Positions 3,324 through 48,273 of a stretch of 64,000 nucleotides of DNA are shown in pieces. A program made the position numbers and the translations under genes. Location of the stretch: NCBI GenBank assembly GCA_031316115.1, contig JALDRC010000012.1, forward strand, positions 1-64,000. Reading direction: 5' to 3'. The notes under the pieces are model-generated. The model worked only from the letters and a program-made list of their open reading frames with translations, searched no databases and had not been told where the DNA came from. This DNA comes from Nitrososphaeraceae archaeon (GTDB lineage: Archaea > Thermoproteota > Nitrososphaeria > Nitrososphaerales > Nitrososphaeraceae). Positions within the stretch are counted from its first letter, which is position 1. The number at the start of each line of letters is the position of its first letter.

Positions 3324-4352
3324 ATGCTATTTACTTGGATATTGGTAATGTGTAATATTCAACCAAAACTTAATTGTAACTTTGATTTTATTAGTAAAAA
3401 TTCTTTAAAAATTGTCAAAATGAGCGTCGTTTTCTCAATTTCTATTATAGTACTTTTCCAATTATTCTATATTGATGAATTCAGGAATAAGGACAGTTTA
3501 GTTTATGCACAATCTAACTCAAAAGACAATACCTCAAAACCTACCCAATCTATTCTTGCAACCCTTGTGGATAAAGCAGTGCAAGAATTAGAGACTCCAA
3601 ATACTACAAAGTCGCTTTTAAATTTAAACCTAGTCATCCAAGCCCTAAAGGAAGCAAATTCAGATTCATCTTATGTACAGACAACAAAAGTTCTATTAGA
3701 AGATGCAGTCACTGCGATAAACGACAATGATACAGATAGAGCATCTGTATATATGGGTCTGGCAATTGACGAACTGTCAGTTGGAGATAGTAACACAGAG
3801 AGCAGTACAACACAAACACCTTCAATAGATGCAAAACCTATTGCTAGTGAAAATTTTCTTCCATATGAAAATTCAATTTTTGGAATTAAAATAAAATATC
3901 CAGATAACTGGTCGGTAAGAACATATCCATATGATCTTACATTGAATAATACTGTTGTAGGATTTTATTCTCCTTCAAAAACAGCATCAGAACTTGGAAA
4001 TATATCTGGTGTGTCTGGTCTTTTTGTGCCATATCTTGATGTATTTGTATTCTCTTCAAAAAATAATACCTTGGAAAGGGTTATCGATGAAAAAATCAAA
4101 AGAATACAAAATAGTACCTTTTTTTCGATAAGTCAATCTGAACCATCTACGTTAAAAGGAAATCAATCTGCTTATACATTAATTTATTCAACAACAGTAG
4201 GAAAAGAGGAATTATTTAAAAAGATTCAAGTTTATACAATATTTGGTGATAAGGTATATCTTATAACATTTACATCTCAAGATGCATTATTTTCGGATTA
4301 TTTACCTGTCGCCAAAAAAATGATAGATTCCTTCCAAGTCAGAAAATCGTGA
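3324..4352 (+). CDS. Exported PsbP-like domain protein
   Basis: A 342-residue protein. A hydrophobic segment lies at about residues 35-50, so the true start may be the internal ATG at 3420, giving a normal signal sequence ending near 'VYAQS'. Residues about 65-150 are helical (many 'LNLVIQALKEAN'-type turns). Residues about 180-342 form a PsbP-like domain starting with the typical 'YENSIFGIKIKYPDNW' opening. In archaea of this group such domains are common in exported proteins of unknown ligand. Likely extracellular; function unknown. No operon partner. Confidence 0.65.
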   Translation: MLFTWILVMCNIQPKLNCNFDFISKNSLKIVKMSVVFSISIIVLFQLFYIDEFRNKDSLVYAQSNSKDNTSKPTQSILATLVDKAVQELETPNTTKSLLNLNLVIQALKEANSDSSYVQTTKVLLEDAVTAINDNDTDRASVYMGLAIDELSVGDSNTESSTTQTPSIDAKPIASENFLPYENSIFGIKIKYPDNWSVRTYPYDLTLNNTVVGFYSPSKTASELGNISGVSGLFVPYLDVFVFSSKNNTLERVIDEKIKRIQNSTFFSISQSEPSTLKGNQSAYTLIYSTTVGKEELFKKIQVYTIFGDKVYLITFTSQDALFSDYLPVAKKMIDSFQVRKS

Positions 4353-9799: not shown

Positions 9800-10400
9800 A
9801 AAATCTTGATTGTAAATAGTTCTATTTAAAGATTAACATATTCAATAACCAAAACTTTGGACAAATTTTTTGAAACATATTATAAGAATTATAAAAAATA
9901 ATTTACTCTAAAACTGATTTTATTAGAAAAGATTATTTTATCCTAACACATAAGTCACTAAAAAACAGTATGAAAATCAAAATTCAATTCAATTAATGAA
10001 AAAAATATACGAGATCAGATTGTAGTTATAAATTTGACTGTTTTTAATTATAATATTAGATATCCGAAAAGTCATCTATTCCTCAATTTCTAGAATTCAT
10101 AATCAGATATATCAAGAATTTTCTATAGTAATTTTTGCCAAATTAGCTTTGATATAGATAAGTGCCTTTTAATTCTATAATCAGGTACAATTATTTATTC
10201 TCCTTGTATAATGATTTTTTAATAAGTTTTGAATATTGTCATCAAAATTATATACTCTTTGGATGTAGTTATTTTCTCATATAAAGCAGTTCAGATACGA
10301 TTTTTTTGTGATTGTTTTGATTTAAAATGCATTTCACAAAGTTCTATTAAAAAAAAAGAAAGTTGATTTTTCTTGTTTTGAAAAATATTTGTTTTCTTGT
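9800..10400. other. Intergenic, no gene seen
   Basis: Six hundred AT-rich bases between two sulfatase genes on the same strand. The gap makes a shared transcript unlikely; a promoter for the 7919-9799 gene should lie near the left end, but none is clear. Confidence 0.5.
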
Positions 10401-12254
10401 TTAATTGATTATGTATGGTCCTGATTTGGTTTCATTTAGAGAAAAGTAACCAGGTGCAAACATATCTGCTAAGCTTATTGTCTGCGTATTATCTGGAGTT
10501 ACATCTGGGAAAACATGCTGGGCAGATTCTGCAAATGCTTCTCCTCTAGGAATTACAACTCCTACCTCTTGAGCATATTGTTGGTAATCAGCAATCATCT
10601 TCTGTAACAACTCTGGATGCTCTGCTGACAAATCTGTATTCTCTCCTAGATCATTTGCTAGGTTGAACAATTCCCATTGTCCTGTCAAACCATCTCCAAT
10701 TGCTTTCCAGTCTCCCATTCGTGTAGTTGTGAAGTTAAAAAGTTCACCTGATATTGATTCATCTGCTGCGTGTGTTATTTCTGCAGAACCCTCAAGAACC
10801 GGCTTGAGAGATTTTCCCATCATTGGATGTACTTCATGTCCCTGATATGTTGAAGGATGTGATACTCCTGCTAACTCAAGAATTGTAGGGGTAATATCAG
10901 TTACGTATGCAAAACTAGTGATAAAATTGGAAGTTGTATTATTGCTAGATGGTACTGATGTTTCTGGTAACTTTACAACAAATGGAGGTCTGGTGCCACC
11001 TTCATAAAAGCTTGTCTTGAAACCTGAAAACGGTGCAACAGCTACATAGGAACCCCATGCTCCATAGTTAAAATCAGAAGTCTGTGTGCCTAGATTTGGA
11101 AGGCTGTTGTTTATTCCAGCTACAAATTGTTCTGCATGTGACAAGTCGACCCCACTAGCATATTTGAAAAGTCTCATTTCAAAGGGTTCGCTACTGGCAT
11201 TGTCTGAGGTAAACATTATAAAAGTATTGTCATATTTTCCTGTATCCTTTAGGTATTGTATCACTTTACCAATGTTGTTATCCATGTCTTCTATCATTGC
11301 TGAATGTACTGCTAATACTCTTGCAGCATATGCCTTTTGATCATCACTTAGGTTATCCCATTGCTCATTTGGAGGAAGTCGTCCGGGATCTGTCATATTG
11401 GAAGCCCAGAATCCTAGTTCCTTTTGTTTTTCAAATCTTTGATCTCTTATTTTATCCCATCCTTCACTGTATATCTTGTCGTATTTGTCAATAAGTTCTT
11501 GACTAGGAGCCATAAATGGACTGTGAGCTACCTGAAATGCAAGGTATGCAAAGAATGGTTTATTGTTCGGCTCGATATTTTTTAGATATTCAAGGAGTTT
11601 GTCGGTATAAAGGGAATTTGAAAAGAGTGTACCATTTCCGGGTCTATCAACTTTTGTTCCATTCTCCATGAATGTAACTGGATATCCAGGTATGTATTGT
11701 GCAGAACTGAAATGATTAGATCCGTCTTGAAGAAGGGTGAAAGTATTGGAAAATCCTCTTGCAGATGGGGCGGTTCCAGGTTCATAGCCATGCCCAGAAA
11801 GATGCCATTTGCCGGACATCAAGGTATCATATCCTGCATCTTTTAGTAACTCTGCAACAGTTACCACATTGTCATTTATGTAAGTCTCATAACCTGGTTG
11901 TCCTTCCTGATTTGGGGCTATAAGTTCAAACATTGTACCTATCCCTCCAATATGCCAGTCTACTCCTGTAAGTAAGGATACTCTGGCAGGTGAACAAGTA
12001 GGTGCAGTATGGTAATCCATTAAAATTTTTCCATCTTTAGCAAGTGCCTCTAGATTTGGCGTTGATATCTCACTTCCAAATGAACCTATATCAGAATAGC
12101 CAAAATCGTCACCTACTATTACTAGAAAATTTGGTTTATTTTCAGAAGTTTGTGCATATATGTTGGAAACCGATCCAACCGCTAAGACTGCAATGAAAAT
12201 TGTTAGCGCGGGAAATGAATACCTATATTTTTTTGTACAAGTAATGAAATCCAT
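10401..12254 (-). CDS. Exported sulfatase (AslA-type), CSPAR motif
   Basis: A 617-residue paralogue of the previous sulfatase. It has a Lys/Arg-rich N terminus and a hydrophobic signal (about residues 14-35, 'IYAQT'), 'IVGDDFGYSD' for metal binding, formylglycine motif C87-S-P-A-R with 'VSLLTG', 'SGKWHLSGHG' and 'MFTSDNASSEP'. Order and spacing of motifs match the 7919-9799 protein, and both end with a similar 'VGVVIPRG' block, so they arose by duplication. Expected role: sulfate ester hydrolysis outside the membrane. The C terminus ('SGPYIIN') also matches the gene relic at 17139. Confidence 0.9.
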   Translation of the reverse strand: MDFITCTKKYRYSFPALTIFIAVLAVGSVSNIYAQTSENKPNFLVIVGDDFGYSDIGSFGSEISTPNLEALAKDGKILMDYHTAPTCSPARVSLLTGVDWHIGGIGTMFELIAPNQEGQPGYETYINDNVVTVAELLKDAGYDTLMSGKWHLSGHGYEPGTAPSARGFSNTFTLLQDGSNHFSSAQYIPGYPVTFMENGTKVDRPGNGTLFSNSLYTDKLLEYLKNIEPNNKPFFAYLAFQVAHSPFMAPSQELIDKYDKIYSEGWDKIRDQRFEKQKELGFWASNMTDPGRLPPNEQWDNLSDDQKAYAARVLAVHSAMIEDMDNNIGKVIQYLKDTGKYDNTFIMFTSDNASSEPFEMRLFKYASGVDLSHAEQFVAGINNSLPNLGTQTSDFNYGAWGSYVAVAPFSGFKTSFYEGGTRPPFVVKLPETSVPSSNNTTSNFITSFAYVTDITPTILELAGVSHPSTYQGHEVHPMMGKSLKPVLEGSAEITHAADESISGELFNFTTTRMGDWKAIGDGLTGQWELFNLANDLGENTDLSAEHPELLQKMIADYQQYAQEVGVVIPRGEAFAESAQHVFPDVTPDNTQTISLADMFAPGYFSLNETKSGPYIIN

Positions 12255-12873
12255 TTAGAAACGAGTGAGCTATATAGTAGATAAATCTTTCCTATAAGAA
12301 ATACGTAGAATAATGATCTTAAATTATAATATACCTTTATTATTACCAATAATAAAAAAATACATATTACATTTTATAAAATCATTAAAATGATTATTTA
12401 GTATAATTTAGAATATTGGTTGTTGTAAATATTGAAAATAACTTTAAGATACATGATTATCAATAATAAAAAATTGATTGATATTGTAGATATTGTGATT
12501 TTAAGAATAATTAGAAATAATTGTTATTCTTTAAACAAACTATTATCTATCCTAGATAGATATGTAGGTCTAATTTTCTCTTGATATTAGATTTTCTTTT
12601 GGTCAAATAATCATAAATAAATAAGATAATAAAGATAAAGAAACTATATTTTGACATAATACAAAAATTAGAAATACTATTCTATTCCAAATTGGAATTG
12701 AAATCGTCTTAAATTAACATATGTACTCATCAGAAATTATATTACTTGTACTTTAAAACATATTGAATGAATTATCTAAGATAATTGAGAAAAAATATGA
12801 AGTTTTCAATATAATCACGTGTTTCTAAGTACAATTTGAATTTGTAAATATTGAAAAGTAGTATTATATATCA
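12255..12873. other. Intergenic, no gene seen
   Basis: About 620 strongly AT-rich bases between the second sulfatase and the FGE gene. No open frame or RNA that I can support. Confidence 0.5.
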
Positions 12874-13851
12874 TTATGTTTTCCTGATAATACACCTGAA
12901 TCCGATATGTGTCATCCCTGTATCGATCATCTGTGGTTGTCTAGCTGCTGGTCTGTATCGTAAACAATAATTCGGAGCGCAGATATGAGAACCACCTTTC
13001 ACTACTTTTCTTGGAATCTTAAACTGTGGTTGTCTAGGATCATAACTGTATTCTGGTGATATTACTCTTGGATTTATAGATGGTGTGCAACAAGTTTTGA
13101 CCTTGGCAGCAGATTCATCTAAATGTGGAACATACCAGTCCGATGTCCACTCCCAAACGTTACCGGCCATATCAAATAAACCATAGCCATTGGGATCGAA
13201 GGAACCAACAGGAGATGTGCCTTCATATTTATCTATTAATAAATTCTGATATGGAAATTCACCCTGCCAGGTATTAGCCATGGGTTTGATGAGTTGTGTA
13301 TCCTCATTCCCCCACGTAAAATCCATTCCATCTAATCCACCTCTTGCTGCAAACTCCCATTCTGCTTCCGTGGGGAGTTCTTTTCCTGCCCATTTTGCAT
13401 AGGCTTGTGCGTCTTCATAAGCAATGTGAACTACAGGATGATCATCTAATCCAATAATGGTGTCACCGGGGCCAAGCGGATGTTTCCAACTGGCTCCTTT
13501 CACCCATCGCCACCAATTGGCATAGTTTTTCAGATCGACAGGTTCATTTCTTTTCTCAAAAACCATTGAACCTGGAACAAGATCTTCTTCTGGCACTGCA
13601 GGAAATTCAGCTGGATTCAATGGTCTTTCTGCAATCGTCATATAATTAGTTTCCATTACAAAGTCATTAAATGCTTTGTTAGTTATCGGATATTTATCCA
13701 TCCAAAAACTGTCAACTGTAACTTTATGTACAGGTTTTTCTTCTGGGTAAAATCTATCTGAACCCATCATAAAACTCCCACCAGCTATAAAAACCATATT
13801 TTCCTGTTTAGGCATGTTTTTTTCTTTATTAAATTCTTTTGTGTCTAACAT
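12874..13851 (-). CDS. Formylglycine-generating enzyme (SUMF1/FGE)
   Basis: A 325-residue protein of the FGE-sulfatase domain family. Diagnostic segments: 'MVFIAGGSFMMGSD' at about 19-32, 'ELPTEAEWEFAARGG' near 158-172, 'GLFDMAGNVWEWTSDWY' near 224-240 and the active-site block 'GGSHICAPNYCLRYRPAAR', where C291 and C296 correspond to the copper-binding cysteine pair of aerobic FGE. It oxidises the motif Cys of sulfatases to formylglycine using O2 and a reductant. No signal peptide, so it acts in the cytoplasm, before export. It follows the third sulfatase by 28 bases, clearly an operon. The start may be the internal Met13. Confidence 0.93.
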   Translation of the reverse strand: MLDTKEFNKEKNMPKQENMVFIAGGSFMMGSDRFYPEEKPVHKVTVDSFWMDKYPITNKAFNDFVMETNYMTIAERPLNPAEFPAVPEEDLVPGSMVFEKRNEPVDLKNYANWWRWVKGASWKHPLGPGDTIIGLDDHPVVHIAYEDAQAYAKWAGKELPTEAEWEFAARGGLDGMDFTWGNEDTQLIKPMANTWQGEFPYQNLLIDKYEGTSPVGSFDPNGYGLFDMAGNVWEWTSDWYVPHLDESAAKVKTCCTPSINPRVISPEYSYDPRQPQFKIPRKVVKGGSHICAPNYCLRYRPAARQPQMIDTGMTHIGFRCIIRKT

Positions 13852-13879
13852 ATTGCATTTAGTGTTGTGTTATTATATA

Positions 13880-15466
13880 TCAATGGCTTGCAACACCTTC
13901 TGTCATTTTTGCTATTGCCTCATCGATTGTAAACGTATTTGGTTTCTGAACAGGTGGGAACTCTTTAAAGGTTTCTGCAAACTTGCCTGCTGCATACTGT
14001 GCTAAGTATATAAAATAAGCATGGTGTACCATCCATTCCCAGTACGAATTAGAAGTGGTATCAGCGAATTCATATGGATCGGTACGTAGGTTGAAAATTT
14101 TTGGAATGCGAAGACGTATGAATGGGTCAGCCCATACTTGCAGAGTTCCCTTGGTACGTTGTTCCATGAAAACGAACTTCCAATTATCAAAGCGTATGCC
14201 AAGCACATCACCATCATCACTGAAATAGAAATAGATATTGCGTGGACTTTCTTTTACTTCACCAGTAAGATATGGTAGCAAGTCAAAACCATCGATATGA
14301 TTTTTATATGTTCGTCCATTGAATTTGTGTCCATTTTTAAGTTTTTCTACCACTTCTTTATCACCTGCCATGGCTAAAAAGGTTGGCAACCAATCATGGT
14401 GCTGAACGATTCCATTTGATATTGAACCAGCCTTGATCTTACCAGGCCAGCGAACTAACAACGGAACACGGAATGCACCTTCCCAGTTGGTATTCTTTTC
14501 ACTACGGAATGGGGTCGTGGCTCCATCTGGCCAAGTATTACTATGTGGGCCGTTATCAGTGGAATACATGACGAAGGTGTCTTCAGCAATTCCGAGTTCG
14601 TCGAGCAGATCAAGCAATTGTCCAACATGTTTATCATGGTCGATCATTGTATCATGATATGGAGACTGCCAACGACCTGCCTGGCCCTTGCTTGAAGGTT
14701 TAGGATGGGTAATAAAGTGCATATGAGTCGTATTGAACCATATAAAAAATGGTTTTCCATCTTTATGCTGCTTTTTGATAAAATCTTTGGTGGCTAAAAC
14801 AAATTCGTCATCGCAGGTTTCCATCCGTTTTGAAGTAAGCGGTCCTGTATCCTCAATTTTTTGCTTGCCAACTTTTCCCCATCGTGGCATTTCTGTAGGA
14901 TCATCAGTATCTGTCGCCCAGGAATGGATAACGCCACGAGGACCGAATGTTTCAAAGAATTTGGGAAACTCTGTTTTAGAAGGATATCCTTCCATTTCAG
15001 GCTCCTCCTCTGCATTGAGATGATAGAGATTGCCGAAGAACTCATCAAATCCGTGGTTTGTAGGCAACATATGGTTAAGATCACCTAAATGGTTCTTACC
15101 GAATTGGCCAGTAGCATATCCTTGGTCCTTTAGCAAAGTGGCTATAGTAACTATTTTTTCGCTCATTCCTACAGGTGCACCAGGCATACCTACTTTGGAT
15201 AATCCTGTGCGGTAAACGCTTTGTCCTGTAATAAAAGATGAACGACCAGCTGTACAGGACTGTTCACCATAAGCGTCTGTGAACATCATTCCTTCCTTTG
15301 CAATACGGTCAATATTGGGTGTTTGATAACCCATCAATCCATGCGAATAACAACTAAGATTGGTTATTCCAATATCATCACCCCAAATAACAAGAATGTT
15401 AGGTTGTTTTTGTTTTGAGTTTTCCATTTTACTCACTCTTTTATCCTTGATAGTTTTACTTAACAA
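13880..15466 (-). CDS. Sulfatase with CTAGR motif, cytosolic-looking
   Basis: A 528-residue sulfatase without signal peptide; Met14 ('MENSKQKQPN') is an equally good start. Motifs: 'VIWGDDIGITN' (metal), C71-T-A-G-R (formylglycine site of CxAxR form), 'GQFGKNHLGD', 'YSTDNGPHS'. It is clearly a different subfamily from the two exported sulfatases. First gene of a two-gene operon with FGE, the arrangement often seen for a sulfatase with its own activator. Base composition is noticeably richer in GC than neighbours, which with codon preferences hints at separate, possibly horizontal, origin; this is an impression, not a calculation. Substrate unknown. Confidence 0.92.
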   Translation of the reverse strand: MLSKTIKDKRVSKMENSKQKQPNILVIWGDDIGITNLSCYSHGLMGYQTPNIDRIAKEGMMFTDAYGEQSCTAGRSSFITGQSVYRTGLSKVGMPGAPVGMSEKIVTIATLLKDQGYATGQFGKNHLGDLNHMLPTNHGFDEFFGNLYHLNAEEEPEMEGYPSKTEFPKFFETFGPRGVIHSWATDTDDPTEMPRWGKVGKQKIEDTGPLTSKRMETCDDEFVLATKDFIKKQHKDGKPFFIWFNTTHMHFITHPKPSSKGQAGRWQSPYHDTMIDHDKHVGQLLDLLDELGIAEDTFVMYSTDNGPHSNTWPDGATTPFRSEKNTNWEGAFRVPLLVRWPGKIKAGSISNGIVQHHDWLPTFLAMAGDKEVVEKLKNGHKFNGRTYKNHIDGFDLLPYLTGEVKESPRNIYFYFSDDGDVLGIRFDNWKFVFMEQRTKGTLQVWADPFIRLRIPKIFNLRTDPYEFADTTSNSYWEWMVHHAYFIYLAQYAAGKFAETFKEFPPVQKPNTFTIDEAIAKMTEGVASH

Positions 15467-18679: not shown

Positions 18680-19354
18680 GTGAATCAAGGCAGTTTTGTA
18701 CTACCTTTTAACGTCAAGTTATTACTAGTTATTTTTGGATTATCATTTATTTTTATCGGTTTATTACCATCTTTGTATGTCTCGATTTATGGTAGTGATG
18801 ATGCAGGGGTTACAAAACTAAAAAAAGTCAATAAGAAAATTAAAGACCTTGATTTTAATTCTGGTGTTTTCTTTGGAAATGTAGAGACATGCACTAATAA
18901 TGCTGGATGTATTGGAACAAACAAAGATGATATAATTTATGGTGGAGCTGGTGGCTCGGTATTTGCATTAAAGGGTGATGATATGATCTATGGTGGAGCT
19001 GATAGTCTTTTATATGGAGGAGATGATGATGATTTGATTCTAGGTGGTGCCGGAAAAGGACTACTTGATGGAGGGCATGGTGATGATGTATTGTTAGCAG
19101 GTGTAGGAAACCAACTACTTGTGGGAGGGAATGGCAATGACAAGTTATTTGGTGGTACAGGCGACACGGTTATGGATGGAGGTTCTGGAGCTAATCATTT
19201 TGACTGTCCTCTCACTTTGTTGGGTTTAGCCAGAGGAGTAGTACTTGACTACAGTCCAGACAAAGGCGATACAGTATCTGGATCATGTAAGATAATAGCA
19301 AACGCAGGGGATGCACGTTCAAGCAGCATACCAGACATTGAACTCCCAGATTAG
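18680..19354 (+). CDS. Exported RTX-like (hemolysin-type Ca-binding repeat) protein
   Basis: A 224-residue protein with GTG start. Residues about 12-35 are a signal or anchor. Residues about 75-165 contain successive Gly/Asp-rich nonapeptide-like units such as 'GGDDDDLILGGAG' and 'GGNGNDKLFGGTG', the form of RTX beta-roll repeats that bind Ca2+. The tail 'GVVLDYSPDKGDTVSGSC' is the usual capping strand and includes one of three or four Cys residues that could form disulfides outside the cell. No catalytic domain. Role: surface or secreted structural Ca-binding protein. A paralogue follows 139 bases downstream. Confidence 0.85.
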   Translation: MNQGSFVLPFNVKLLLVIFGLSFIFIGLLPSLYVSIYGSDDAGVTKLKKVNKKIKDLDFNSGVFFGNVETCTNNAGCIGTNKDDIIYGGAGGSVFALKGDDMIYGGADSLLYGGDDDDLILGGAGKGLLDGGHGDDVLLAGVGNQLLVGGNGNDKLFGGTGDTVMDGGSGANHFDCPLTLLGLARGVVLDYSPDKGDTVSGSCKIIANAGDARSSSIPDIELPD

Positions 19355-19493
19355 ATAAAATTGAATAATCCCTAAAAAGAGATATTAGTAATCGTTACAA
19401 ATTTTTTATCATAAAACAAATTCTAGTATTTTTTTATAATTCACTTTATCTTATTTCTTAATAGTAATAGATCAATGAATAATATATCATAAT

Positions 19494-20405
19494 ATGATTC
19501 ATAGAGTTGTTATATCCATCATCATTCCGACTAGTATCATATTCCTTGCTTTTCTCGGAAATTTCATTCATGTTTCATTTACACAATCATCAGATTCTGA
19601 AGAATCAGATAGTCCCGAGTCTTCAATTAACACCATAGTGGAAGATTTAGATCGATTATTATCTGATCTTAAATCGTTAGAGAATCTCGAAGAGGAATTA
19701 GAATTACCAGACTATCCAATCACTAACATAGTAGAAAAGTTAAGCAGGATACTATTAGAACTTAAATCCTTAGGTACTCTTGAAGGTGATTCAGATCAAC
19801 AAGAATCTTCAAACACCAACATAGTACAAGATTTGATCCGTTTATTATTAGAGTTTAAATCTTTAGAAAATCTTGGAGAGTCAGGGTGTCTTCTAAGCGG
19901 TCTTACAGGAGATACTTCTGGCATTACAAAAAAAGGAAACCTTATAACCGGAACTAATTGTGATGATAAAATCAATGGAGGTAAAAGTAACGAAATAATA
20001 TACACGTTAGCAGGAATCGATGAGGCTTATGCAAAAGATGGAAATGATATAATTTATGGTGGTTCGGGAGATGATAAGCTATATGGTGGAAATGGCGATG
20101 ATATTATAATGGCAGGAGGGGGAAGCAATTTACTAGATGGAGGACCAGGAAGTGATGTATTGATTAGTGGTCTTGGAAATAACCTTTTAGTTGGAGGTTC
20201 TGGAAATGATTTTCTCATAGGTGGAACTGGTTCTACAATTATGTATGGAGCAGGTGGAAGCAACAGTTTTGACTGTGGACTTGGACCTGGAATAGTGCTA
20301 GATTACAATCCATCAAATGGAGACACGGTAGCAGGAGAATGCAAGATACTCAATAATATGGGGACAAATATTGATAGTGAAATTGAAATAAAACCACCTG
20401 GATAG
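19494..20405 (+). CDS. Exported RTX-like protein with N-terminal helical repeats
   Basis: A 303-residue protein. A signal peptide is at about residues 5-30. Residues about 45-130 contain three copies of a roughly 38-residue acidic helical unit with the core 'NIVxDLxRLLxxLKSLENL'. Residues about 180-265 are RTX-like Gly/Asp repeats ('GGSGDDKLYGGNGDDIIMAGG'), then the capping segment 'GIVLDYNPSNGDTVAGEC'. The end closely resembles the preceding gene, so the pair arose by duplication and the helical repeats were gained or lost. Likely a Ca-binding surface protein, with the helical repeats acting as spacer or oligomerisation module. Confidence 0.83.
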   Translation: MIHRVVISIIIPTSIIFLAFLGNFIHVSFTQSSDSEESDSPESSINTIVEDLDRLLSDLKSLENLEEELELPDYPITNIVEKLSRILLELKSLGTLEGDSDQQESSNTNIVQDLIRLLLEFKSLENLGESGCLLSGLTGDTSGITKKGNLITGTNCDDKINGGKSNEIIYTLAGIDEAYAKDGNDIIYGGSGDDKLYGGNGDDIIMAGGGSNLLDGGPGSDVLISGLGNNLLVGGSGNDFLIGGTGSTIMYGAGGSNSFDCGLGPGIVLDYNPSNGDTVAGECKILNNMGTNIDSEIEIKPPG

Positions 20406-22182: not shown

Positions 22183-23133
22183 TTACTTGAAAAATTTGAA
22201 TATGTTTGAAACTGGATTATTTTCCTCTGGACCAGTTTGTGCTCCATTTTGAGTATTACTCTCGGTATTAGGATCTTGGGTATTATCCGTTACAATGTTT
22301 TCTTCAGAACCAGTATTTGTTTGGTCCAAAACTCCTTGATTTTCATTTTGAGGATTGACTATTTCTTCTTGTTGCTGAACTTGCTGTTGAGATTGTTGCT
22401 GAACTTGCTGTTGAGATTGTTGTTGAACTTGCTGTTGAGATTGTTGTTGAACTTGCTGTTGTTCTGAATTGGTAACAGGTTGGGTTGTATCAGTGGCTGG
22501 ATTAATAGTTTCACAATCATTACCTGGAATTACATCTCCTTCTGCTTGATTAAAATCAGAAACTTTGTCTTTACCTGTACCACAGATGAATTTGTCTGAA
22601 CCTGGACCACCTATAAAGACATCATTTCCTGGTCCACCTATTAATACATCATTTCCGCTATAACCAAATAATCGATCATTCCCTTCTCCACCATCTATTT
22701 GATCATTACCGCTTTTACCTCTCAAAAAATCTCTTCCTTGTTCACCAAAAATTGTATCATTTCCATCTCCACCACTTATATCATCCCCTGCTTCTTTTCC
22801 ATAAATAAAATCATTACCTCCTAAGCCATTAATTTTATCTTGGTTGATGGTACCCGTGATGTTATCAGCGTTCTCTGTACCATTTATCTCCTCACCCCAT
22901 GCTTCCTTTAAAATAACAAGGGGATTATGCGAGGTTCCAGGAGAGTAATCGCTGTTTATATTTATGGATATATTTGAACCTAAGAGAAGGGGTGACAAAG
23001 ATATTATTACAAAACAAAATAAATTTCTTGTATTTATTTTTTGAAACAACTTTAATATTTTAGAATCAGATTGCAACATAATATAGGGGAAATTTCCTCT
23101 ATTTTTATTTTTATCTGTTATTTTGGTTAACAT
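22183..23133 (-). CDS. Exported RTX-like protein with Gln-rich tail
   Basis: A 316-residue protein with a hydrophobic segment at about 35-60 (export signal; the annotated start may be too far upstream, and Met19 is an alternative). Residues about 80-190 are RTX-like repeats ('GGDGNDTIFGEQGRDFLRG', 'GGPGNDVFIGGPGSDKFICG') followed by the cap 'DKVSDFNQAEGDVIPGNDC'. Residues about 222-255 are an almost pure 8-residue repeat 'QQVQQQSQ', then an Asn/Gly-rich linker and a short aromatic end. It is a close paralogue of the protein at 47563-48273 in the repeat domain. Probable Ca-binding surface protein. Confidence 0.85.
   Translation of the reverse strand: MLTKITDKNKNRGNFPYIMLQSDSKILKLFQKINTRNLFCFVIISLSPLLLGSNISININSDYSPGTSHNPLVILKEAWGEEINGTENADNITGTINQDKINGLGGNDFIYGKEAGDDISGGDGNDTIFGEQGRDFLRGKSGNDQIDGGEGNDRLFGYSGNDVLIGGPGNDVFIGGPGSDKFICGTGKDKVSDFNQAEGDVIPGNDCETINPATDTTQPVTNSEQQQVQQQSQQQVQQQSQQQVQQQSQQQVQQQEEIVNPQNENQGVLDQTNTGSEENIVTDNTQDPNTESNTQNGAQTGPEENNPVSNIFKFFK
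22371..22463 (-). repeat. 24-bp tandem repeat, nearly four copies
   Basis: About 3.9 copies of a 24-bp unit (plus-strand form GTTGCTGAACTTGCTGTTGA plus GATT) encode the Gln-rich 8-residue repeat of the RTX-like protein. Copies differ by single bases. Copy number is expected to vary between strains. Confidence 0.9.
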
Positions 23134-34509: not shown

Positions 34510-36912
34510 TTATTTATTGTCTGCTTCTTTAGATATTATATCTTTCATTTCTATTGGCGATTTTAATCTAGTTATATTCTTTCCAAATATCATATCTACT
34601 CCCCAATCAATAAGAACTCGTAACTTGTTTTCTAAGCTTGGTAGATTAGACAAATAGAAAAATCTCCAAATTCCCCATGCAAAAACTCCTTTTATAGAAT
34701 GACCAAATATCATTGCTACTCCATTTCTTTTTCCTATTGTTGCCATTATGCCTCTAGTCTGATATGAATATTCTATTTTCTTTTTTTGTTTATCATTAAC
34801 TTGATTGTCTTCTTTTTCTTCTTTTTCTTCTTTTTGCTTTTTGGAATTTTTTCTAGATTCAAAATCATTTTTTATACCTAAAATGATATTTTCTGCTGCA
34901 ACTTTTCCTTGTCGTATTGCGTGTTGTGCAGTTGGAGGATAGGGATTGCCGGTTTGTGGATCTGTTATCAATGCACAGTCTCCAATAGCATAAACATCTG
35001 TAAATCCTTTTATCTGCAAATATTTGTCTGTAATTACTTTACCAGTTCTTTGATCATGTTCACAAGGAATGGTGACAACAGATCTTTCTGGTACTACTCC
35101 TGCAGTCCAAACAATAGTATTAGCTATTATCTCTTTTCCGTCTTTTAACAAAATTCTTTTAGGACCATTTATTGTTAACATATCTTTTTTACTAATGTTA
35201 TTCAGTCCTATTGGTTGTACGTCTAGCACTCTGTTATTTAAAAGAACCTCAACATCTTTCTTTTTTAGCTCCTCTAAAGCGAAATCAGCAAGTTGTTCAG
35301 GCAGTTCTGGTAAAATTCTTGATCCAGAGTTTACAAGAATGACTTTAACATCAGTTAAATCGATGTTTTGATAATAATCCAGTATAGATTCTTTTATAAA
35401 GTCATTTAATTCCCCAACTGTTTCTACACCTGCAAATCCACCACCTACTACTACATATGTTGTAAGACTTTTTTTCAAATGTCTTAGGTGGATTGGATCA
35501 GGATAATGATCATCCGTCAAACTAAAAATTGCGTTATCCTTTTCTCCTTGTTCTTCATCTCTTGCTGTTGTTGTAATTGATACTTGTTTTTCTTCAATGA
35601 GGAGGATATCAGATTGTTCCAAAGTACTGATGATATGACTTCTGATGGAAAATGCATCATAAAGGGTTTTCATTGTAAAAGATGCCTTTTCGATATTTTT
35701 GTTTCCATAGAAATTTGTATTACTTCCTAAAGCTAAAACAAGGTAATCATATTTTAAAGATTGTGAAAAATAATTTTCATCGATTCTTGAAGTATCAAAA
35801 GACGGTTTTATTGAATCTGAATATTGATGGATTTCAGATGATGGTGGAGAAGAGGAAGAGTACTTTTGTGATAAATTCAAGTTTGATTCAATGCCAAGTA
35901 ATCCAGAATCTAAAAGGGAATTTGTAAATTCAATTCTTTTATTGTCTAGATCTATTGATTCAATGCGTGATTCTATAAATCTGGCTCTTTTACAGAATGC
36001 TCTTAATGGTGCAGCAACATGTCTTGTCTCTATCATTCCAGATGATACTTCATGCAACATAGGTGTGAAAAGAAAGAAATTGTCTTGACTCAGTAGAGTA
36101 ATATCTACTCTGATATCATTTTGAAAAGCTTTTTGAAGTTGTTTGAGAACTTGTATTCCTCCAAAACCTCCTCCCAAAATAATTATTTTTCTCTGTTCTA
36201 TAGGCTCCCTACCATGGACTAATTTCAAATGTTTTTTTATAATATCTATTCTTGAAAATGATACATTACATATAGTGCATTTGTATCTAGAACCAAATTT
36301 AATAGATAAAAAGGAGGAAACAATACCGACTGTAATCCCAAATATTAGATTAATTATCAAGGAATTTATCAAAATATCTGGTTTATTGTATTCCATCTCT
36401 TCAAGTATTTCATTTTCAGATAATGTCGGATATAGTTCAGCAGTAGTACGTGCACTTTCGGGCATTAGAACAAATTGATTGATAGGAATAGCCCACACAA
36501 TAAAAATAATACTACCAGCAAAAATTCCATATAAAAGTCCATTAACTGGTTTACTAATGTTTAAAATATTGGTTCTATACAAAAAAATACCCGTTATAAT
36601 ACCTATAGAGATAGCTGTAATTATATGAATAACAAAGCCTGCTAAAGCTGCATGTGAAGAATATACACCAATGACATGCCCGTATATTATCCAGGACATA
36701 TAGTATGGTTCTCCACTAAATAATTCCAAAATTGTTCTAGGTAAAACCATTGTTAATCCACCAATTATAGCAGATATAACAACGAAAAATACTTCACGTT
36801 TTAAAGAAAAATCGATTTTAATTAAATTGTTATCATTAGAAAGTTGACGATCTTTTTTAATTTTTAACTTCATAAATTTTAGATCCATCAATTTTTTTAT
36901 ATCTATTTCCAT
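34510..36912 (-). CDS. Membrane domain-C2H2 zinc finger-type II NADH dehydrogenase fusion
   Basis: An 800-residue fusion. Residues about 40-205 hold about five hydrophobic segments. Residues 212-233 are an exact C2H2 finger (C212, C215, H228, H233; spacing C-x2-C-x12-H-x4-H). From residue 242 an NDH-2-like flavoprotein follows, with the FAD motif 'ILGGGFGG' at 245-252, the NAD(P) motif 'VVGGGFAG' at about 488-495 and 'AIGDCALI' near 650. Polar inserts lie at about 330-385 and 440-475, and another Lys/Glu-rich insert near 695-720. NDH-2 enzymes pass electrons from NADH to quinone without pumping protons. Divergent from a DoxX gene with 114 bases between. Confidence 0.88.
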   Translation of the reverse strand: MEIDIKKLMDLKFMKLKIKKDRQLSNDNNLIKIDFSLKREVFFVVISAIIGGLTMVLPRTILELFSGEPYYMSWIIYGHVIGVYSSHAALAGFVIHIITAISIGIITGIFLYRTNILNISKPVNGLLYGIFAGSIIFIVWAIPINQFVLMPESARTTAELYPTLSENEILEEMEYNKPDILINSLIINLIFGITVGIVSSFLSIKFGSRYKCTICNVSFSRIDIIKKHLKLVHGREPIEQRKIIILGGGFGGIQVLKQLQKAFQNDIRVDITLLSQDNFFLFTPMLHEVSSGMIETRHVAAPLRAFCKRARFIESRIESIDLDNKRIEFTNSLLDSGLLGIESNLNLSQKYSSSSPPSSEIHQYSDSIKPSFDTSRIDENYFSQSLKYDYLVLALGSNTNFYGNKNIEKASFTMKTLYDAFSIRSHIISTLEQSDILLIEEKQVSITTTARDEEQGEKDNAIFSLTDDHYPDPIHLRHLKKSLTTYVVVGGGFAGVETVGELNDFIKESILDYYQNIDLTDVKVILVNSGSRILPELPEQLADFALEELKKKDVEVLLNNRVLDVQPIGLNNISKKDMLTINGPKRILLKDGKEIIANTIVWTAGVVPERSVVTIPCEHDQRTGKVITDKYLQIKGFTDVYAIGDCALITDPQTGNPYPPTAQHAIRQGKVAAENIILGIKNDFESRKNSKKQKEEKEEKEDNQVNDKQKKKIEYSYQTRGIMATIGKRNGVAMIFGHSIKGVFAWGIWRFFYLSNLPSLENKLRVLIDWGVDMIFGKNITRLKSPIEMKDIISKEADNK

Positions 36913-37026: not shown

Positions 37027-37524
37027 GTGAATGAAAAAGATTGCCAGATTTTCGAATACAATCAATATATATCATTAAAAACATTAAAAAAAGCGTTGAA
37101 TGAACAGGTAAAAATATTTCAGTTTTCGCCTATCCCCTTGAGGATAATAGCAGGAATTGGATTTGTTCTCCATGGGCTTCCTAAACTTCTGGATATTCCA
37201 GGTACTCAGAACTCATTTATCAACATGGGATTACCACCAGAAATGGCAATAGTTATAGGACTTTTAGAATTGATAGGTGGTTTGGCTATTTTGCTAGGTT
37301 TTTTAACAAGAATTGCAGCAGGATTATTAGCAATAGATATGATAGGTGCTATTTTACAGGTAAAACTATCAAAAGGATTTATTGGCGGATATGAGTTAGA
37401 TTTATTGTATCTTGCCATAATGATAAGTTTGATGATCACTGGACCTGGTAGATTGTCTATAGAGAGAAATATTCTTAAAAGAGAAATTTTTCCAAAATTA
37501 ACTAATCCAACAAATAAAAAGTAG
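37027..37524 (+). CDS. DoxX-family membrane protein
   Basis: A 165-residue protein with a polar N terminus of about 35 residues, then four hydrophobic segments (about 38-60, 73-93, 97-115, 130-150). 'RIIAGIGFVLHGLPKLLDIPG' and 'GLLELIGGLAILLGFLTRIAA' are DoxX-family blocks. Family members include the small subunit of thiosulfate:quinone oxidoreductase, but most have no assigned reaction. It shares an intergenic region with the NDH-2 fusion, which suggests quinone-linked work at the membrane. Confidence 0.85.
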   Translation: MNEKDCQIFEYNQYISLKTLKKALNEQVKIFQFSPIPLRIIAGIGFVLHGLPKLLDIPGTQNSFINMGLPPEMAIVIGLLELIGGLAILLGFLTRIAAGLLAIDMIGAILQVKLSKGFIGGYELDLLYLAIMISLMITGPGRLSIERNILKREIFPKLTNPTNKK

Positions 37525-37576: not shown

Positions 37577-38297
37577 GGCTGTGTTAATTTAAGATAATAT
37601 TCACCTCCTTTAATAAAAAATCATGATTATTATTCACTATAGTATCATTATACATAGAAACAAAGAATTGTATCCAGTTATATACATGAAATAGATTACA
37701 TTTTTGTTTGATACAAGGATAGTAATCATCAAAACTTTCTATCATGTCTTTCAAAAACTGATTTACTTTTTCCATCAAACTTTTTTCTATTGAAGAATGC
37801 AGATAGTGCTTTAATCCAATTATATTACATGCTTCATCATACCAGGTACCACCATCTGTATAAATGGTATGTTTACCGTATCTGGATACAAGAGATCTGA
37901 TGAATTTTTCAGCTACCAGCATGTTTCTCTCTTCTGAGATATAGATTCCAAGCATAGAACTGAAAACAGGTTCAATACAAACCCATAACCAGAAATGTTT
38001 TTGTCCTATCTGAATGATGGTTTCGTCTATTATGAAAGCAGTTACTCTTTTTCTTTTGTAAATCTGAGAGGAACCAAACCTTTGTATCCAATTCCAAACA
38101 GACACATGACTTCTTTTCTCGTCTCTAAATATAATCAATGCTTTAGATACATTTCGTAAACTTAAACCAAGAAAGTACAGGTAAAGAGAATAGAGTACAA
38201 TAGAGGAAGAGGTTTTATTCCTTTCAAATTTGATTTTATTCATATCATATTTAGAATATTCTTAGATCTAGCTTTTACTGCTTATCTGAACAGATCC
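37577..38297 (-). mobile_element. IS6-family insertion sequence, complete
   Basis: A 721-bp element. Terminal inverted repeats are GGCTGTGTTAATTTAAG (37577-37593) and, inverted, GGATCTGTTCAGATAAG (38297-38281), 13 of 17 matching, with the GG(C/A)TxTGTT start typical of IS6/IS26 elements. It is flanked by a perfect 8-bp direct repeat ATGTCACC, the known duplication length for this family. One intact transposase gene inside. The perfect duplication indicates that the insertion is recent and unrearranged. Confidence 0.92.
37584..38243 (-). CDS. IS6-family transposase
   Basis: A 219-residue DDE transposase of IS6/IS240 type. The N-terminal HTH-like region (about 10-60, '[12 protein letters not shown]') is followed by the catalytic core: '[12 protein letters not shown]' (Asp near 70), '[15 protein letters not shown]' (Asp near 130) and '[17 protein letters not shown]' (Glu near 153), with the canonical 'FDDYYPC' and 'HVYNWIQFF' after it. 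Length is normal and no frameshift is present, so it is probably active. It fills almost the whole element. Confidence 0.93.
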
Positions 38298-40740: not shown

Positions 40741-41643
40741 CTATTGTTTTTTTTGCATTTTGTCTTTATTCGATCTATCGTGTAAAGATGATACCTTCTT
40801 TTCATTTTTTGAAAATCTTAGTAGATGATTTCTAAGTAGTTGAATACCTAAAGCTGGGTCTACACCTTTAGGACAGACATGACTACATGAACCAGCAAAA
40901 TGACATCTCCAAATACCGTGTCTATCGTCTATAATATTAAATCTCTTAGAATTGTCAGAGTCTCTAGAGTCTGAATAATATCTATAAGCTTGAGCCAGTG
41001 CTTGTGGACCAGGAAATTTTGTATCAGTTGCTACGGTTGGGCACGCAGAATAACACAAACCACATTTTATACAGTATGAGAATTGCAAAAATTTGTCTAA
41101 CTCCTCAGGAGTTTGTGAAAATTCAGTTAGTTCACTTTTATCTTCCATGTCAGCATGTTCATTTTGAATATATGGCATGATATTTCTGTGATGTTCAAAG
41201 AATTGCGAAAAGTCCGTAACTAAATCACGTATATATGGAAAGTTGGAAAGTGGTTCGCAAGTAATGGTATCTCCTTCTAACTCATCTATCTTCGTATAAC
41301 AGGCTAAACGTGGCTTGCCATTTATTTTCATGCCACAAGAGCCACATGAAGCCATTCTACAAGAATATCTAATTCCAATACTACTATCCTGATAACTCTT
41401 AGCATATAGTAATGCATCTAGGACAGTAGTCCATTTTTTAACTGGAACTTTAAAATTATCATAATGCGCTGAATCTATTTGACCATCCTTACGAGCATTA
41501 ATTCTGAAGACCTTCAGATTAATACTGCCGACTATATTTTTATCGACTCCATCCTTATTCTTCTTAAATTTGGAACCAGTTTGTTTCTTTTCATTTAAAT
41601 TTTTTTCATCAGTAAGATTTTCAACATTATTAGTTTGGTTCAT
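40741..41643 (-). CDS. sdhB: Succinate dehydrogenase iron-sulfur subunit
   Basis: A 300-residue subunit of complex II. The 2Fe-2S ligands are in 'CRMASCGSCGMKINGKPRLAC'-type spacing (about residues 100-120), the 4Fe-4S ligands in 'CIKCGLCYSACP' (about 193-204), and the next cluster in 'CHFAGSCSHVCPKGVDP' (about 244-260). It relays electrons from the SdhA flavin to the membrane quinone site. N- and C-terminal Lys/Asn-rich tails extend it beyond the usual 230-260 residues. Last gene of the A-C-D-B operon, 26 bases after sdhD. Confidence 0.93.
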   Translation of the reverse strand: MNQTNNVENLTDEKNLNEKKQTGSKFKKNKDGVDKNIVGSINLKVFRINARKDGQIDSAHYDNFKVPVKKWTTVLDALLYAKSYQDSSIGIRYSCRMASCGSCGMKINGKPRLACYTKIDELEGDTITCEPLSNFPYIRDLVTDFSQFFEHHRNIMPYIQNEHADMEDKSELTEFSQTPEELDKFLQFSYCIKCGLCYSACPTVATDTKFPGPQALAQAYRYYSDSRDSDNSKRFNIIDDRHGIWRCHFAGSCSHVCPKGVDPALGIQLLRNHLLRFSKNEKKVSSLHDRSNKDKMQKKQ

Positions 41644-41669
41644 TTCTAAATCACATATTATTTATTCAT

Positions 41670-42059
41670 TTAAAGTAAAGATAGACCGTTTGCAACTATT
41701 ATTGTCCTTGTCCCATAGACAACTATTCCAATCATCGCAATAATTACAAAAATATTTACTGCTCTTTCCCATATTACATTTTGTCTTAATTCCAATAATA
41801 TAATTCTTAGACCATTAAAACCATGTATCGCGATCAGAACAAGAATAGATTCAAGCAAAATTGCATAAAAAATATTCTTGTAATTTAATATCACATTTTC
41901 GTATTCTAATGACATGTTATAAGGCATTATTAAGCGCATCATTATGTGTATGGCCACCACTACAAGAGCACAAACTCCGGTAATATAGTGTATCTTCATT
42001 ATCTGGCTTTCCCTCAAAAGAGATTTTCCCTTGTTGTAGTTTTTTAAACCATTTTTCAT
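41670..42059 (-). CDS. sdhD: Succinate dehydrogenase membrane anchor (SdhD-like)
   Basis: A 129-residue protein with three hydrophobic helices (about 23-42, 62-90, 100-122). His residues in 'IHYITGVCALVVVAIHI' and 'IAIHGFNGLRIILLEL' are good candidates for heme or quinone-site ligands. Assignment comes from position between SdhC and SdhB and from the three-helix layout; the sequence itself is weakly conserved. It begins six bases after sdhC ends. Confidence 0.8.
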   Translation of the reverse strand: MKNGLKNYNKGKSLLRESQIMKIHYITGVCALVVVAIHIMMRLIMPYNMSLEYENVILNYKNIFYAILLESILVLIAIHGFNGLRIILLELRQNVIWERAVNIFVIIAMIGIVVYGTRTIIVANGLSLL

Positions 42060-42065
42060 TAAATC

Positions 42066-42566
42066 TCATTCACCTCCAAACAAAACACTTGCCCCATATA
42101 ACATCGCGACTGCGCATAATACAAGAGCTATCCATATTCCGGATTGTTGTCTGGTATTAATTGATGTTGGTTCATATGGATAATCAGGTCTTCCTGGCTT
42201 TCCCAAACCTTTTCCAGATTCGGTGAAAATCAATCTTATACCGTTTACTGTATGAAAAGTACTCGCACCAATAACCAATATTAAAAAGAGATGTCCCCAA
42301 ATTGTCTGTGTCATTTCCAACATAGTGGCCCAAGCATCTGGTCCATCAACAAGAGAGCTCGTTTCATAAACATGTCCTATAAAATATATCAGGAGGAATA
42401 CACCAGTTAGACGCTGTAGCCAATATGAAACTCTTTCCCATCCGTACCTGGAAGGATTGAGCCATCCTTTTAATCCTTCTCTATTAGATCTAATATTGGT
42501 AGTAGTATTAAGATCATCAGGTTTTGAATTGGTTTTTGTCAAGTCAACACTGTCAGGTTTTGTCAT
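42066..42566 (-). CDS. sdhC: Succinate dehydrogenase cytochrome b subunit
   Basis: A 166-residue membrane subunit. A polar N terminus of about 40 residues precedes 'RVSYWLQRLTGVFLLIYFIGH' (TM1), TM2 with 'WGHLFLILVIGASTFHTVNGIR' and TM3 at about 142-163. The 'FHTVNGIRL' segment with its His is the usual heme-b ligand of SdhC. It anchors SdhAB and forms the quinone site together with SdhD. The start codon directly follows the sdhA stop, showing translational coupling. Confidence 0.9.
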   Translation of the reverse strand: MTKPDSVDLTKTNSKPDDLNTTTNIRSNREGLKGWLNPSRYGWERVSYWLQRLTGVFLLIYFIGHVYETSSLVDGPDAWATMLEMTQTIWGHLFLILVIGASTFHTVNGIRLIFTESGKGLGKPGRPDYPYEPTSINTRQQSGIWIALVLCAVAMLYGASVLFGGE

Positions 42567-44294
42567 TTAGTACTTCCTCTCCACTGGGGCGTATCTAGTA
42601 AACACCACTGGATGCCAAGTCATTTTAGGTTCTCCCTCATGGTTAAAATAAGCAAGAGTATGTTTTAAAAAATTGACATCATCTCTATTAGGATAGTCTA
42701 TTCTAGAATGCGCACCTCTTGATTCTCTTCTATTTATAGCTCCTAATAATACAACCTCAGCGGTTCTTAACATGGCATCAACTTCCATGACATTTACAAA
42801 ATTGGTATTATATTCCTTTGACTTGTCATTTAGATGTTTCCATGCCTGCCCCTTTAACATCCTAACTTTTTTTAGACCTTCTAGAAGAGGTTGTTCTGTT
42901 CGAAAGACATAGGCCTTTTCATCCATAGTATCTGTCATTTCCTTTCTTACTTCATATGGATTAACATCCCCTTTCCCTCGAAATATTCCATCATAGATTC
43001 TTTTTTCTTCAGTTTTAACCTGGTCTAGTGCAAAATCTAGTGTTTTATTTTTATTCTTAAATTCCATCGCATATTTTGCGGCAAGTTCCCCAGTTATCCT
43101 ACCCCATACTATACACTCTGAAGTAGAGTTTGCTCCTAACCTATTAGCACCGTGAAGGCTGTTACAAGCTGCCTCACCTGCTGCCCAAAGTCCTGTTAGT
43201 TCTGTTTGCCCATCCAAGTTTGTATGGATTCCTCCCATCATATAATGACAAACGGGTCTAATCTCTATGGGTTCGTCAATAACATCGACTCCTGAAAATT
43301 TAATTCCAATCTCTCTTATTCCAGCAAGTTTTTCCTTTATCTTCTCATCTCCAAGATGGGTCAAATCTAATTTTAAACAATCATAACCGGATTCATGTTT
43401 AAATCCCCTACCTTCCTGTATTTCCATTATCATAGATCTAGATACTACGTCTCTAGGAGCCAATTCCACCTTTTCAGGAGCATATTTTTTCATAAATCGT
43501 TCGTTTTTATTATTTATTAAATAACCTCCTTCTCCTCTAGCACCCTCGGTTATGAGTATACCAGATGGCAATATTCCCGTAGGATGAAATTGAACAAATT
43601 CCATATCTTTCATTGCTAGACCTGCTCTAAATGCCATATCTATCCCATCAGGAGTAGAAGAGTATGCATAGGTAGAGAAACTGTAAATTCTACCAGCTCC
43701 CCCAGTACATATAATTCCAGAAGGAGCTTTTACTTTTAAAAAATCTCCACTCTTTAACTCAATGGCTGTTACTCCTCTAAAAGAATTATTTTCCTTTAAA
43801 ATACTGGTGCAGAACCATTCGTTATAAAAATTGATATTATCGAATTTAAGACAGGTATCGTATAGAGTTTGCATTTCGTAAAACCCCACTTTGTCCTGGG
43901 CATAGGTTGCTCTTGGAAAGGAATAACCACCGAATTTTCTTTGGCCGATCCTTCCATCTTCCCGTCTTGACCAAGGCATACCCCAATGGTCTAATTGATA
44001 TATTTCATGTGGTATATTTTTAGCCAATCTTTCTGCTACATCCTGATCCGCAAGGAAATCGCTTCCTTTTATGGTGTCGTAAATGTGTGATTCTTGGTTA
44101 TCTCCTTCATCTTCAAAAATTACTGCTGCAGTCCCTCCTTCGGCTGAAACTGAATGTGATCGCATTACCTGAACTTTTGAAAAAACACCGATGCTGATTT
44201 TTTTTGGTTCAATAAATGCAGCAGCGATTGCTGCCCTCAATCCGGCAAGACCTGAGCCTATAATGATAAGATCATGGTGAATTGTATCTGTCAC
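42567..44294 (-). CDS. sdhA: Succinate dehydrogenase flavoprotein subunit
   Basis: A 575-residue flavoprotein of normal length. 'IIGSGLAGLRAAIAA' binds FAD. 'RSHSVSAEGGTAAV' contains H47 at the place of the covalent flavin His. 'FVQFHPTGIL', 'TEGARGEGGYLIN' and 'HGANRLGANS' are active-site and FAD blocks. It oxidises succinate to fumarate in the TCA cycle and starts the four-gene operon. Promoter must lie in the 277-base gap upstream; 'AAGTATATTTG' on the minus strand near 44338 is a candidate TATA region. Confidence 0.95.
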   Translation of the reverse strand: MTDTIHHDLIIIGSGLAGLRAAIAAAFIEPKKISIGVFSKVQVMRSHSVSAEGGTAAVIFEDEGDNQESHIYDTIKGSDFLADQDVAERLAKNIPHEIYQLDHWGMPWSRREDGRIGQRKFGGYSFPRATYAQDKVGFYEMQTLYDTCLKFDNINFYNEWFCTSILKENNSFRGVTAIELKSGDFLKVKAPSGIICTGGAGRIYSFSTYAYSSTPDGIDMAFRAGLAMKDMEFVQFHPTGILPSGILITEGARGEGGYLINNKNERFMKKYAPEKVELAPRDVVSRSMIMEIQEGRGFKHESGYDCLKLDLTHLGDEKIKEKLAGIREIGIKFSGVDVIDEPIEIRPVCHYMMGGIHTNLDGQTELTGLWAAGEAACNSLHGANRLGANSTSECIVWGRITGELAAKYAMEFKNKNKTLDFALDQVKTEEKRIYDGIFRGKGDVNPYEVRKEMTDTMDEKAYVFRTEQPLLEGLKKVRMLKGQAWKHLNDKSKEYNTNFVNVMEVDAMLRTAEVVLLGAINRRESRGAHSRIDYPNRDDVNFLKHTLAYFNHEGEPKMTWHPVVFTRYAPVERKY

Positions 44295-47562: not shown

Positions 47563-48273
47563 ATGAATAATAATAAAATACCATTAGTTGATTGTTTTAG
47601 TCCTTCAGCATTTTTGGGATTTGTGGCAAAAAAAAGAGAATATCTTATTGTTTTATCTGCTGGAATTTGTTTTATATCAGGATTTTATTTAAGTTATAAT
47701 AATATCCCAGGAGATCAAAAATTTTCTTTTACTAATCTTGCCTTTGCTGAAGAAATAGGAGGAAGCGATAATCAGGATAAGCTTATAGGTACTGAACAAA
47801 CAGACACAATTAAAGGGTTCGGTGGTAATGATACCATCTTTGGCAAAAATGGAGGTGATGATATAAGTGGTGGAGATGGGAGTGATGTTATTTATGGAGA
47901 TAATGGTAGAGATTTTCTGAAGGGAAAATCGGGAGACGACCGAGTTGAGGGTGGACAAGGAAATGACAGAATCTACGGGGACAGTGGAAATGATATTCTA
48001 ATAGGTGGACCAGGAAATGATTTAATTCTAGGTGGTCCAGGGAAAGATATTTTTATATGCAATGATGGAAAAGATACTATAGCAGATTTTAATCTTACTG
48101 ACGGTGATATGACACCAGAAGATGATTGTGAAAATATTACTACAAAAAATGAAAACACTGAAAAGGAAATAATATCTACTAGCAGCTACGAAACTGAAAG
48201 GACGGATTATGATAGAAGTAGTGTAACAAACTTTTTTGAGTATTTAGATCATATATTGCCTGTGGTAAATTAA
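47563..48273 (+). CDS. Exported RTX-like protein
   Basis: A 236-residue protein. A hydrophobic signal lies at about residues 28-48, then 'LAFAEEIGGSDNQD'. RTX-like repeats cover residues about 70-160 ('GGDGSDVIYGDNGRDFLKGK', 'GGPGNDLILGGPGKDIFIC'), then 'DTIADFNLTDGDMTPEDDC'. The repeat domain is the close paralogue of the one at 22183-23133, 24 kb away, but the Gln-rich tail is absent and replaced by an acidic 45-residue end. Probable Ca-binding surface protein. Confidence 0.85.
   Translation: MNNNKIPLVDCFSPSAFLGFVAKKREYLIVLSAGICFISGFYLSYNNIPGDQKFSFTNLAFAEEIGGSDNQDKLIGTEQTDTIKGFGGNDTIFGKNGGDDISGGDGSDVIYGDNGRDFLKGKSGDDRVEGGQGNDRIYGDSGNDILIGGPGNDLILGGPGKDIFICNDGKDTIADFNLTDGDMTPEDDCENITTKNENTEKEIISTSSYETERTDYDRSSVTNFFEYLDHILPVVN

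Follow-up and report, generated by a model that had tools for sequence, protein, structure and literature searches.

Overall architecture of the locus

The window analysed here is a 64,000-nucleotide stretch, positions 1 to 64,000 of contig JALDRC010000012.1 from a Nitrososphaeraceae archaeon. The source genome is 98.8% complete and encodes archaeal AmoA, marking the organism as an ammonia-oxidising archaeon. AmoA was identified with the PF12942 profile; the PF02461 profile for AMO matched no control genome and was uninformative. On the minus strand, a single open reading frame of 800 residues with an ATG start encodes, in order, a membrane bundle, a zinc finger of the C2H2 type and an entire type II NADH dehydrogenase (NDH-2). 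The features of the locus are as follows.

34510..36912, minus strand: complete fusion gene, 800 aa (open reading frame; architecture recurrent in two archaeal families)
36295..36804, minus strand: predicted membrane domain, residues 37-206 (AF2 model pLDDT 92.8; hydropathy; paralogues weakly DUF6789-like)
36214..36285, minus strand: C2H2 finger, residues 210-233, with C212, C215, H228, H233 and core F219 (exact motif; conserved ligands; predicted beta-beta-alpha fold)
34579..36189, minus strand: NDH-2 flavoprotein, residues 242-778, with FAD, NAD(P)H and membrane-binding C-terminal domains (Pfam; PDB by sequence; Foldseek; motifs)
34777..35922, minus strand: span with three variable polar inserts and conserved NDH-2 core between them (column identity; pLDDT; comparison with Nitrosopumilaceae)
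37027..37524, plus strand: DoxX-family membrane protein, divergent neighbour of the fusion (Pfam DoxX, E 6e-20)

That membrane domain, finger and NDH-2 lie in one polypeptide was the central claim of the original prediction, and it holds. The frame is uninterrupted across 34510..36912 and the same architecture recurs in other genomes of two families; thus, the fusion is not an assembly artefact, and we rejected both an assembly chimera and a pair of separate genes as its source. The membrane-finger-NDH-2 arrangement is real and is conserved in two families of ammonia-oxidising archaea.

The surroundings of the gene are variable. Nitrosocosmicus sp. SS likewise has a DoxX homologue next to its fusion gene, and two Nitrosopumilaceae have one downstream within about 0.6 kb, but such a gene is absent at most other fusion loci inspected, and we found no conserved operon partner. 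A succinate dehydrogenase-like operon of four genes, recognised by eye, is located about 4 kb away (40741-44294, minus strand). Related transposase-like genes occur near the fusion (37584-38243) and, elsewhere in the same genome (contig C18, L003), near a stand-alone paralogue of the membrane domain. Further away in the window, three arylsulfatase-like genes (7919-9799, 10401-12254 and 13880-15466, all minus strand) and a formylglycine-generating-enzyme-like gene between them (12874-13851) were identified by eye from their translations; in this ammonia oxidiser, 7919-15466 could possibly be a cluster for sulfatase maturation. GGxGxD calcium-binding (RTX-like) repeats, also recognised by eye, mark four proteins within 18680-20405, 22183-23133 and 47563-48273 that look secreted.

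The NDH-2 flavoprotein

In Pfam, Pyr_redox_2 covers residues 242-669 above its cut-off and NDH2_C, the membrane-interaction domain, covers residues 720-778 (36.1 bits against a cut-off of 27.7). By sequence, the nearest solved chains are NDH-2s, including the M. smegmatis (9mqy), S. aureus, C. thermarum and yeast enzymes. By fold, the closest structures are likewise NDH-2s, with target-normalised Foldseek TM-scores of up to 0.90, the value for 4nwz. The NDH-2 family is defined by two GxGxxG motifs, a catalytic Glu, YD, GD and AQxAxQ/AQxAxR (PMC5299459), and here these correspond to GGGFGG at 247-252, GGGFAGVE ending in the catalytic E497, Y388D389, G644D645 and the quinone motif AQHAIR. E497 is invariant in all 24 copies of a diverse alignment whose other members are 40-66% identical to the protein encoded at 34510-36912. 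The predicted NDH-2 identity is thus confirmed by domain models, solved structures, fold and motifs. We considered and discarded sulfide:quinone oxidoreductase and CoA-disulfide reductase, since their models fall far short of cut-off and the nearest matches are NDH-2s. The protein is a predicted NAD(P)H:quinone oxidoreductase.

Residue 528 is N, S, H, Q or A across the clade, whereas the aligned position is Asp or Glu in 9mqy and 5na1. By Rossmann-fold rules, a non-acidic residue here, in place of the acidic one of classical NDH-2s, may relax the preference for NADH, so the substrate may be NADH or NADPH.

The core is interrupted by polar inserts at residues of about 331-382, 437-478 and 681-712. 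The original prediction had noted such inserts, and they are real; they are, however, poorly conserved (19-22% column identity versus 71-79% in most of the NDH-2 core), largely of low pLDDT and mostly missing from Nitrosopumilaceae copies; a Nitrosopumilaceae protein that lacks them has about 640 aa.

The membrane bundle

Hydropathy and the AF2 models agree on four long helices and a short helix at 71-80. The membrane part foreseen originally is therefore present, but not as five full helices. The predicted topology of the bundle agrees with the positive-inside rule.

The fusion's own membrane domain has no match to DUF6789 in Pfam, whereas stand-alone bundle paralogues match this family (PF20587) weakly, the best at E 5e-5 with 23.8 bits against a cut-off of 27.1. 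The bundle is a remote relative of DUF6789, and structural searches returned no relatives at E <= 0.001 in the PDB or among viral models. A haem site in the bundle was considered, as H96 is invariant (60/60), but the other conserved His, at position 188, is replaced by Asn in this genus, and we make no such claim. At two further loci (L036 and L037, in G047 and G048), a divergently encoded stand-alone copy of the membrane domain adjoins the fusion gene (plus strand, near 3300-3900).

The C2H2 finger

The C-x2-C-x12-H-x4-H spacing given in the original prediction is found exactly, as C212-x2-C215-x12-H228-x4-H233. With F219 in the hydrophobic core, the segment conforms to the finger consensus C-x2-4-C-x12-H-x3-5-H and is predicted to bind zinc. 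The whole protein contains just five Cys and 15 His, and about 1e-5 such motifs are expected from composition; this figure and the conservation of the ligands across copies led us to reject a chance motif. The Pfam C2H2 models match residues 209-233 below cut-off, the best at 16.4 versus 27 bits for the whole fusion protein and at 18.3 bits for the N-terminal part alone. Short C2H2 models often overlook single divergent fingers.

A model of bundle plus finger built from a 60-row alignment (mean pLDDT 92.8) predicts the beta-beta-alpha fold, with a pLDDT of 83-89 in the finger block, and in a Foldseek search it weakly retrieves C2H2 fingers. Helix 177-207 continues straight into strand 209-212. 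The finger lies three residues past the last membrane helix and about eight ahead of the first FAD-domain strand. The junction between TM4 and the finger has no indels in the alignments. In the full-length model, from a 20-row alignment, the pLDDT of the finger is ~63 and its packing against the NDH-2 is not resolved.

The ligands and core of the finger are constrained. C212, F219, H228 and H233 are invariant in 24/24 diverse copies from two families, and C215 is Cys in 23; the exception (L034, the same gene as L159) is an intact copy with His, still a possible zinc ligand. Orthologues without the Cys and His residues would have spoken against the original prediction, and these ligands are instead kept. 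Among 35 distinct fingers, all have Cys, Cys/His, His and His at the ligand positions, as the search pattern itself demanded, and one other spacing was seen (C-x3-C in L052). The dN/dS of the finger is ~0.04-0.1 in the three pairs that carry sufficient synonymous and non-synonymous differences. Serious loss of ligands is confined to disrupted copies, namely the frameshifted L039/L054, the stop-riddled L053 and the fragment L104; some fusion copies are truncated or frameshifted, perhaps through assembly.

These data bear on the idea that domain shuffling among the genomes' C2H2 fingers left this one behind as a neutral remnant. In its favour, there are ~35 weak C2H2 matches in the same genome, and in the NDH-2 tree described below the finger and the membrane part seem to have been lost together in several lineages. 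Invariant ligands and core across two families, purifying selection and the restriction of ligand loss to broken genes nevertheless make this reading extremely unlikely.

The variable positions of the finger are also informative. Residues 221, 223, 224 and 227, which read DNA in classical fingers, vary across the clade while the core is constant, and this argues for a structural or protein-contact role. Binding of nucleic acid, by which the finger would give the enzyme, its mRNA or the chromosome a membrane tether, is accordingly very improbable. The helix start FSRID in this genus does resemble DNA-binding fingers (R at -1, D at +2), and a Foldseek search with the finger model recovers DNA-binding C2H2 fingers (Kaiso, BCL6 and ZNF484), albeit weakly and at E > 1 as the match is short. 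However, positions -1, 2, 3 and 6 are unconserved across the clade, the protein has no other nucleic-acid domain, and single fingers bind DNA weakly.

Distribution and evolution

Of the 70 Nitrososphaeraceae genomes sampled, at least 22, from nine genera, carry the fusion, full or partly assembled. A 300-genome scan of the class located it in at least 15 Nitrosopumilaceae genomes as well, two of these cases being cut by contig ends. Named carriers include Nitrosopumilus sp. D6, Nitrosopumilus sp. H13 and Nitrosocosmicus sp. SS; the remaining genomes were placed in families through kinship and named relatives. A single-protein query against the contigs returned nothing, whereas an alignment query gave matches. 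The original prediction had suggested looking for the same domain order elsewhere, and the search was positive in two families with Cys and His kept. The distribution within the family is patchy (22/70) and genus g12 yielded no fusion, indicating that the fusion is not essential to the lifestyle.

The collected NDH-2 loci show four architectures: membrane-finger-NDH-2, finger-NDH-2, NDH-2 alone and a bacterial membrane-NDH-2 that lacks the finger. An N-terminal finger on an NDH-2 without membrane domain is seen in Ca. Nitrosopumilus salaria BD31 (L191), CSP1-1 (L181) and B16T1B3 (L182). Conversely, proteins of about 200-237 aa combine the membrane domain with a C-terminal finger in the absence of NDH-2 (L024 in G016, L152 in G204 and the C2HC-like L154 in G323). 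From these stand-alone proteins, the membrane-finger pair is evidently a reusable unit.

A tree of 102 rows places every finger-bearing NDH-2 within a single archaeal clade (62 rows, SH-aLRT 97), in which bare NDH-2s are interspersed. The tree fits an early fusion followed by later losses, with weak inner forks and a midpoint root that do not fix the order of gain and loss. In the bacterial proteins, from Armatimonadetes CSP1-3 (L200) and Chloroflexi B84T3L11 (L234), a helical membrane domain directly precedes the NDH-2 as in the archaeal fusion, but a plain linker takes the place of the finger. Since they are remote from the archaeal clade in the tree, they probably represent an independent fusion. 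At both of these loci (Sysuimicrobiota and Chloroflexota), a membrane gene with GPLTL-type repeats lies downstream. Separately, one frame of Bacterium HR10 (L194, 4809-6941) joins an NDH-2 to a C-terminal Rieske [2Fe-2S] domain.

Proposed role of the finger

A classical C2H2 finger within a respiratory membrane enzyme is unexpected. We consider it somewhat better than an even bet that the protein is a membrane-anchored NAD(P)H:quinone oxidoreductase of the NDH-2 type in which the finger serves as a zinc-stabilised structural joint or docking module. The four-helix bundle would anchor the enzyme in the membrane, with the N and C termini both cytoplasmic, and the finger would hold the flavoprotein in a set position above bundle and quinone pool. 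Electrons from NAD(P)H would reach quinone by way of FAD in the NDH-2 body, and no protons would be pumped. A structural or docking role is favoured by the constrained ligands and core, the indel-free junction, the low dN/dS and the confinement of damage to broken copies, and the likeliest role of the finger is that of a zinc-stiffened joint. Counting against a joint are the presence of the finger on stand-alone membrane proteins, the sub-threshold Pfam C2H2 scores and the low pLDDT in the full-length model. Moreover, the finger is kept on NDH-2s without a membrane domain, so it is not only a joint between membrane and enzyme, nor a mere spacer.

These same architectures lend some weight to the finger being a docking site for another protein, such as a redox donor, a respiratory complex or a regulatory subunit, in which case it need not organise the enzyme at all. 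C2H2 fingers frequently bind proteins, and position 222, beside the variable DNA-reading positions, is mostly hydrophobic (I in 28/35). Yet no conserved partner gene adjoins the fusion, the neighbourhoods vary widely and DoxX is an occasional neighbour, leaving docking of this kind rather unlikely.

The original prediction favoured a sensor of zinc or redox state, through thiol oxidation, that gates electron entry into the quinone pool. The location of the finger between membrane and FAD domain would suit such a function, and regulatory EF-hand or CxxC insertions have been described in other NDH-2s (PMC5299459). Those insertions are elsewhere, however, between the GD motif and helix 7 (PMC5299459). 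The finger itself is an ordinary tight four-ligand finger with a conserved core, one intact copy has His in place of C215, and many close NDH-2s carry no finger. We therefore regard a sensor as improbable, and it is just as doubtful that zinc occupancy or thiol redox state shifts the flavoprotein over the bundle and thereby sets the rate of electron entry from NAD(P)H. A joint or docking module fits better, given the standard four ligands and core, the tight and fixed junction with the membrane helix and the plain linker in the bacterial proteins. The archaea offer natural comparisons, with and without the membrane part and with and without the finger, that make the role of the finger testable.

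Physiological context

Ammonia-oxidising archaea abound in soils and in the sea, and the route by which reductant enters their respiratory chain is not well established. Apart from the fusion, no NDH-2 was found in the genome. Other weak matches from the NDH-2 search look, from their sequences, like sulfide:quinone oxidoreductase (SQR), CoA-disulfide reductase or glutathione reductase. The genome encodes the 49 kDa subunit of complex I, and NuoF, its 51 kDa NADH-binding subunit, was not found by a search that matched nine control genomes. Because it is the sole NDH-2 found and the 51 kDa subunit was not found, the fusion is the best candidate for an NAD(P)H-to-quinone route, and it is plausibly the main entry of NAD(P)H electrons to the quinone pool. 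Elsewhere in this genome, a 60-residue segment (C6:23404-23583, L002) with 47% identity to residues 708-766 and a stop codon is a relic of an NDH-2 C terminus and, by its sequence, a decayed second copy.

Comparison with known NDH-2s

In open-licence papers dealing with NDH-2 or with C2H2 fingers in this group of archaea, covered mostly at the level of titles and abstracts, we found no description of this architecture. The fusion shares both dinucleotide-binding domains and NDH2_C with the NDH-2s of S. aureus (5na1), C. thermarum (4nwz) and M. smegmatis (9mqy) and with yeast Ndi1 (4g6g), as well as the catalytic Glu (E497, equivalent to E172) and the YD, GD and AQxAxR motifs. It differs from all four in its extra N-terminal bundle, its C2H2 finger, its variable polar inserts and the lack of an acidic residue 528. 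With the DUF6789 (PF20587) membrane proteins, similarity is limited to the stand-alone bundle paralogues and does not reach the curated threshold. NDH-2s that bear EF-hand or CxxC insertions (PMC5299459) likewise combine the enzyme with an additional metal-binding or Cys element. Those insertions lie between the GD motif and helix 7, whereas the finger of the archaeal fusion precedes the FAD domain and comes after a membrane bundle.
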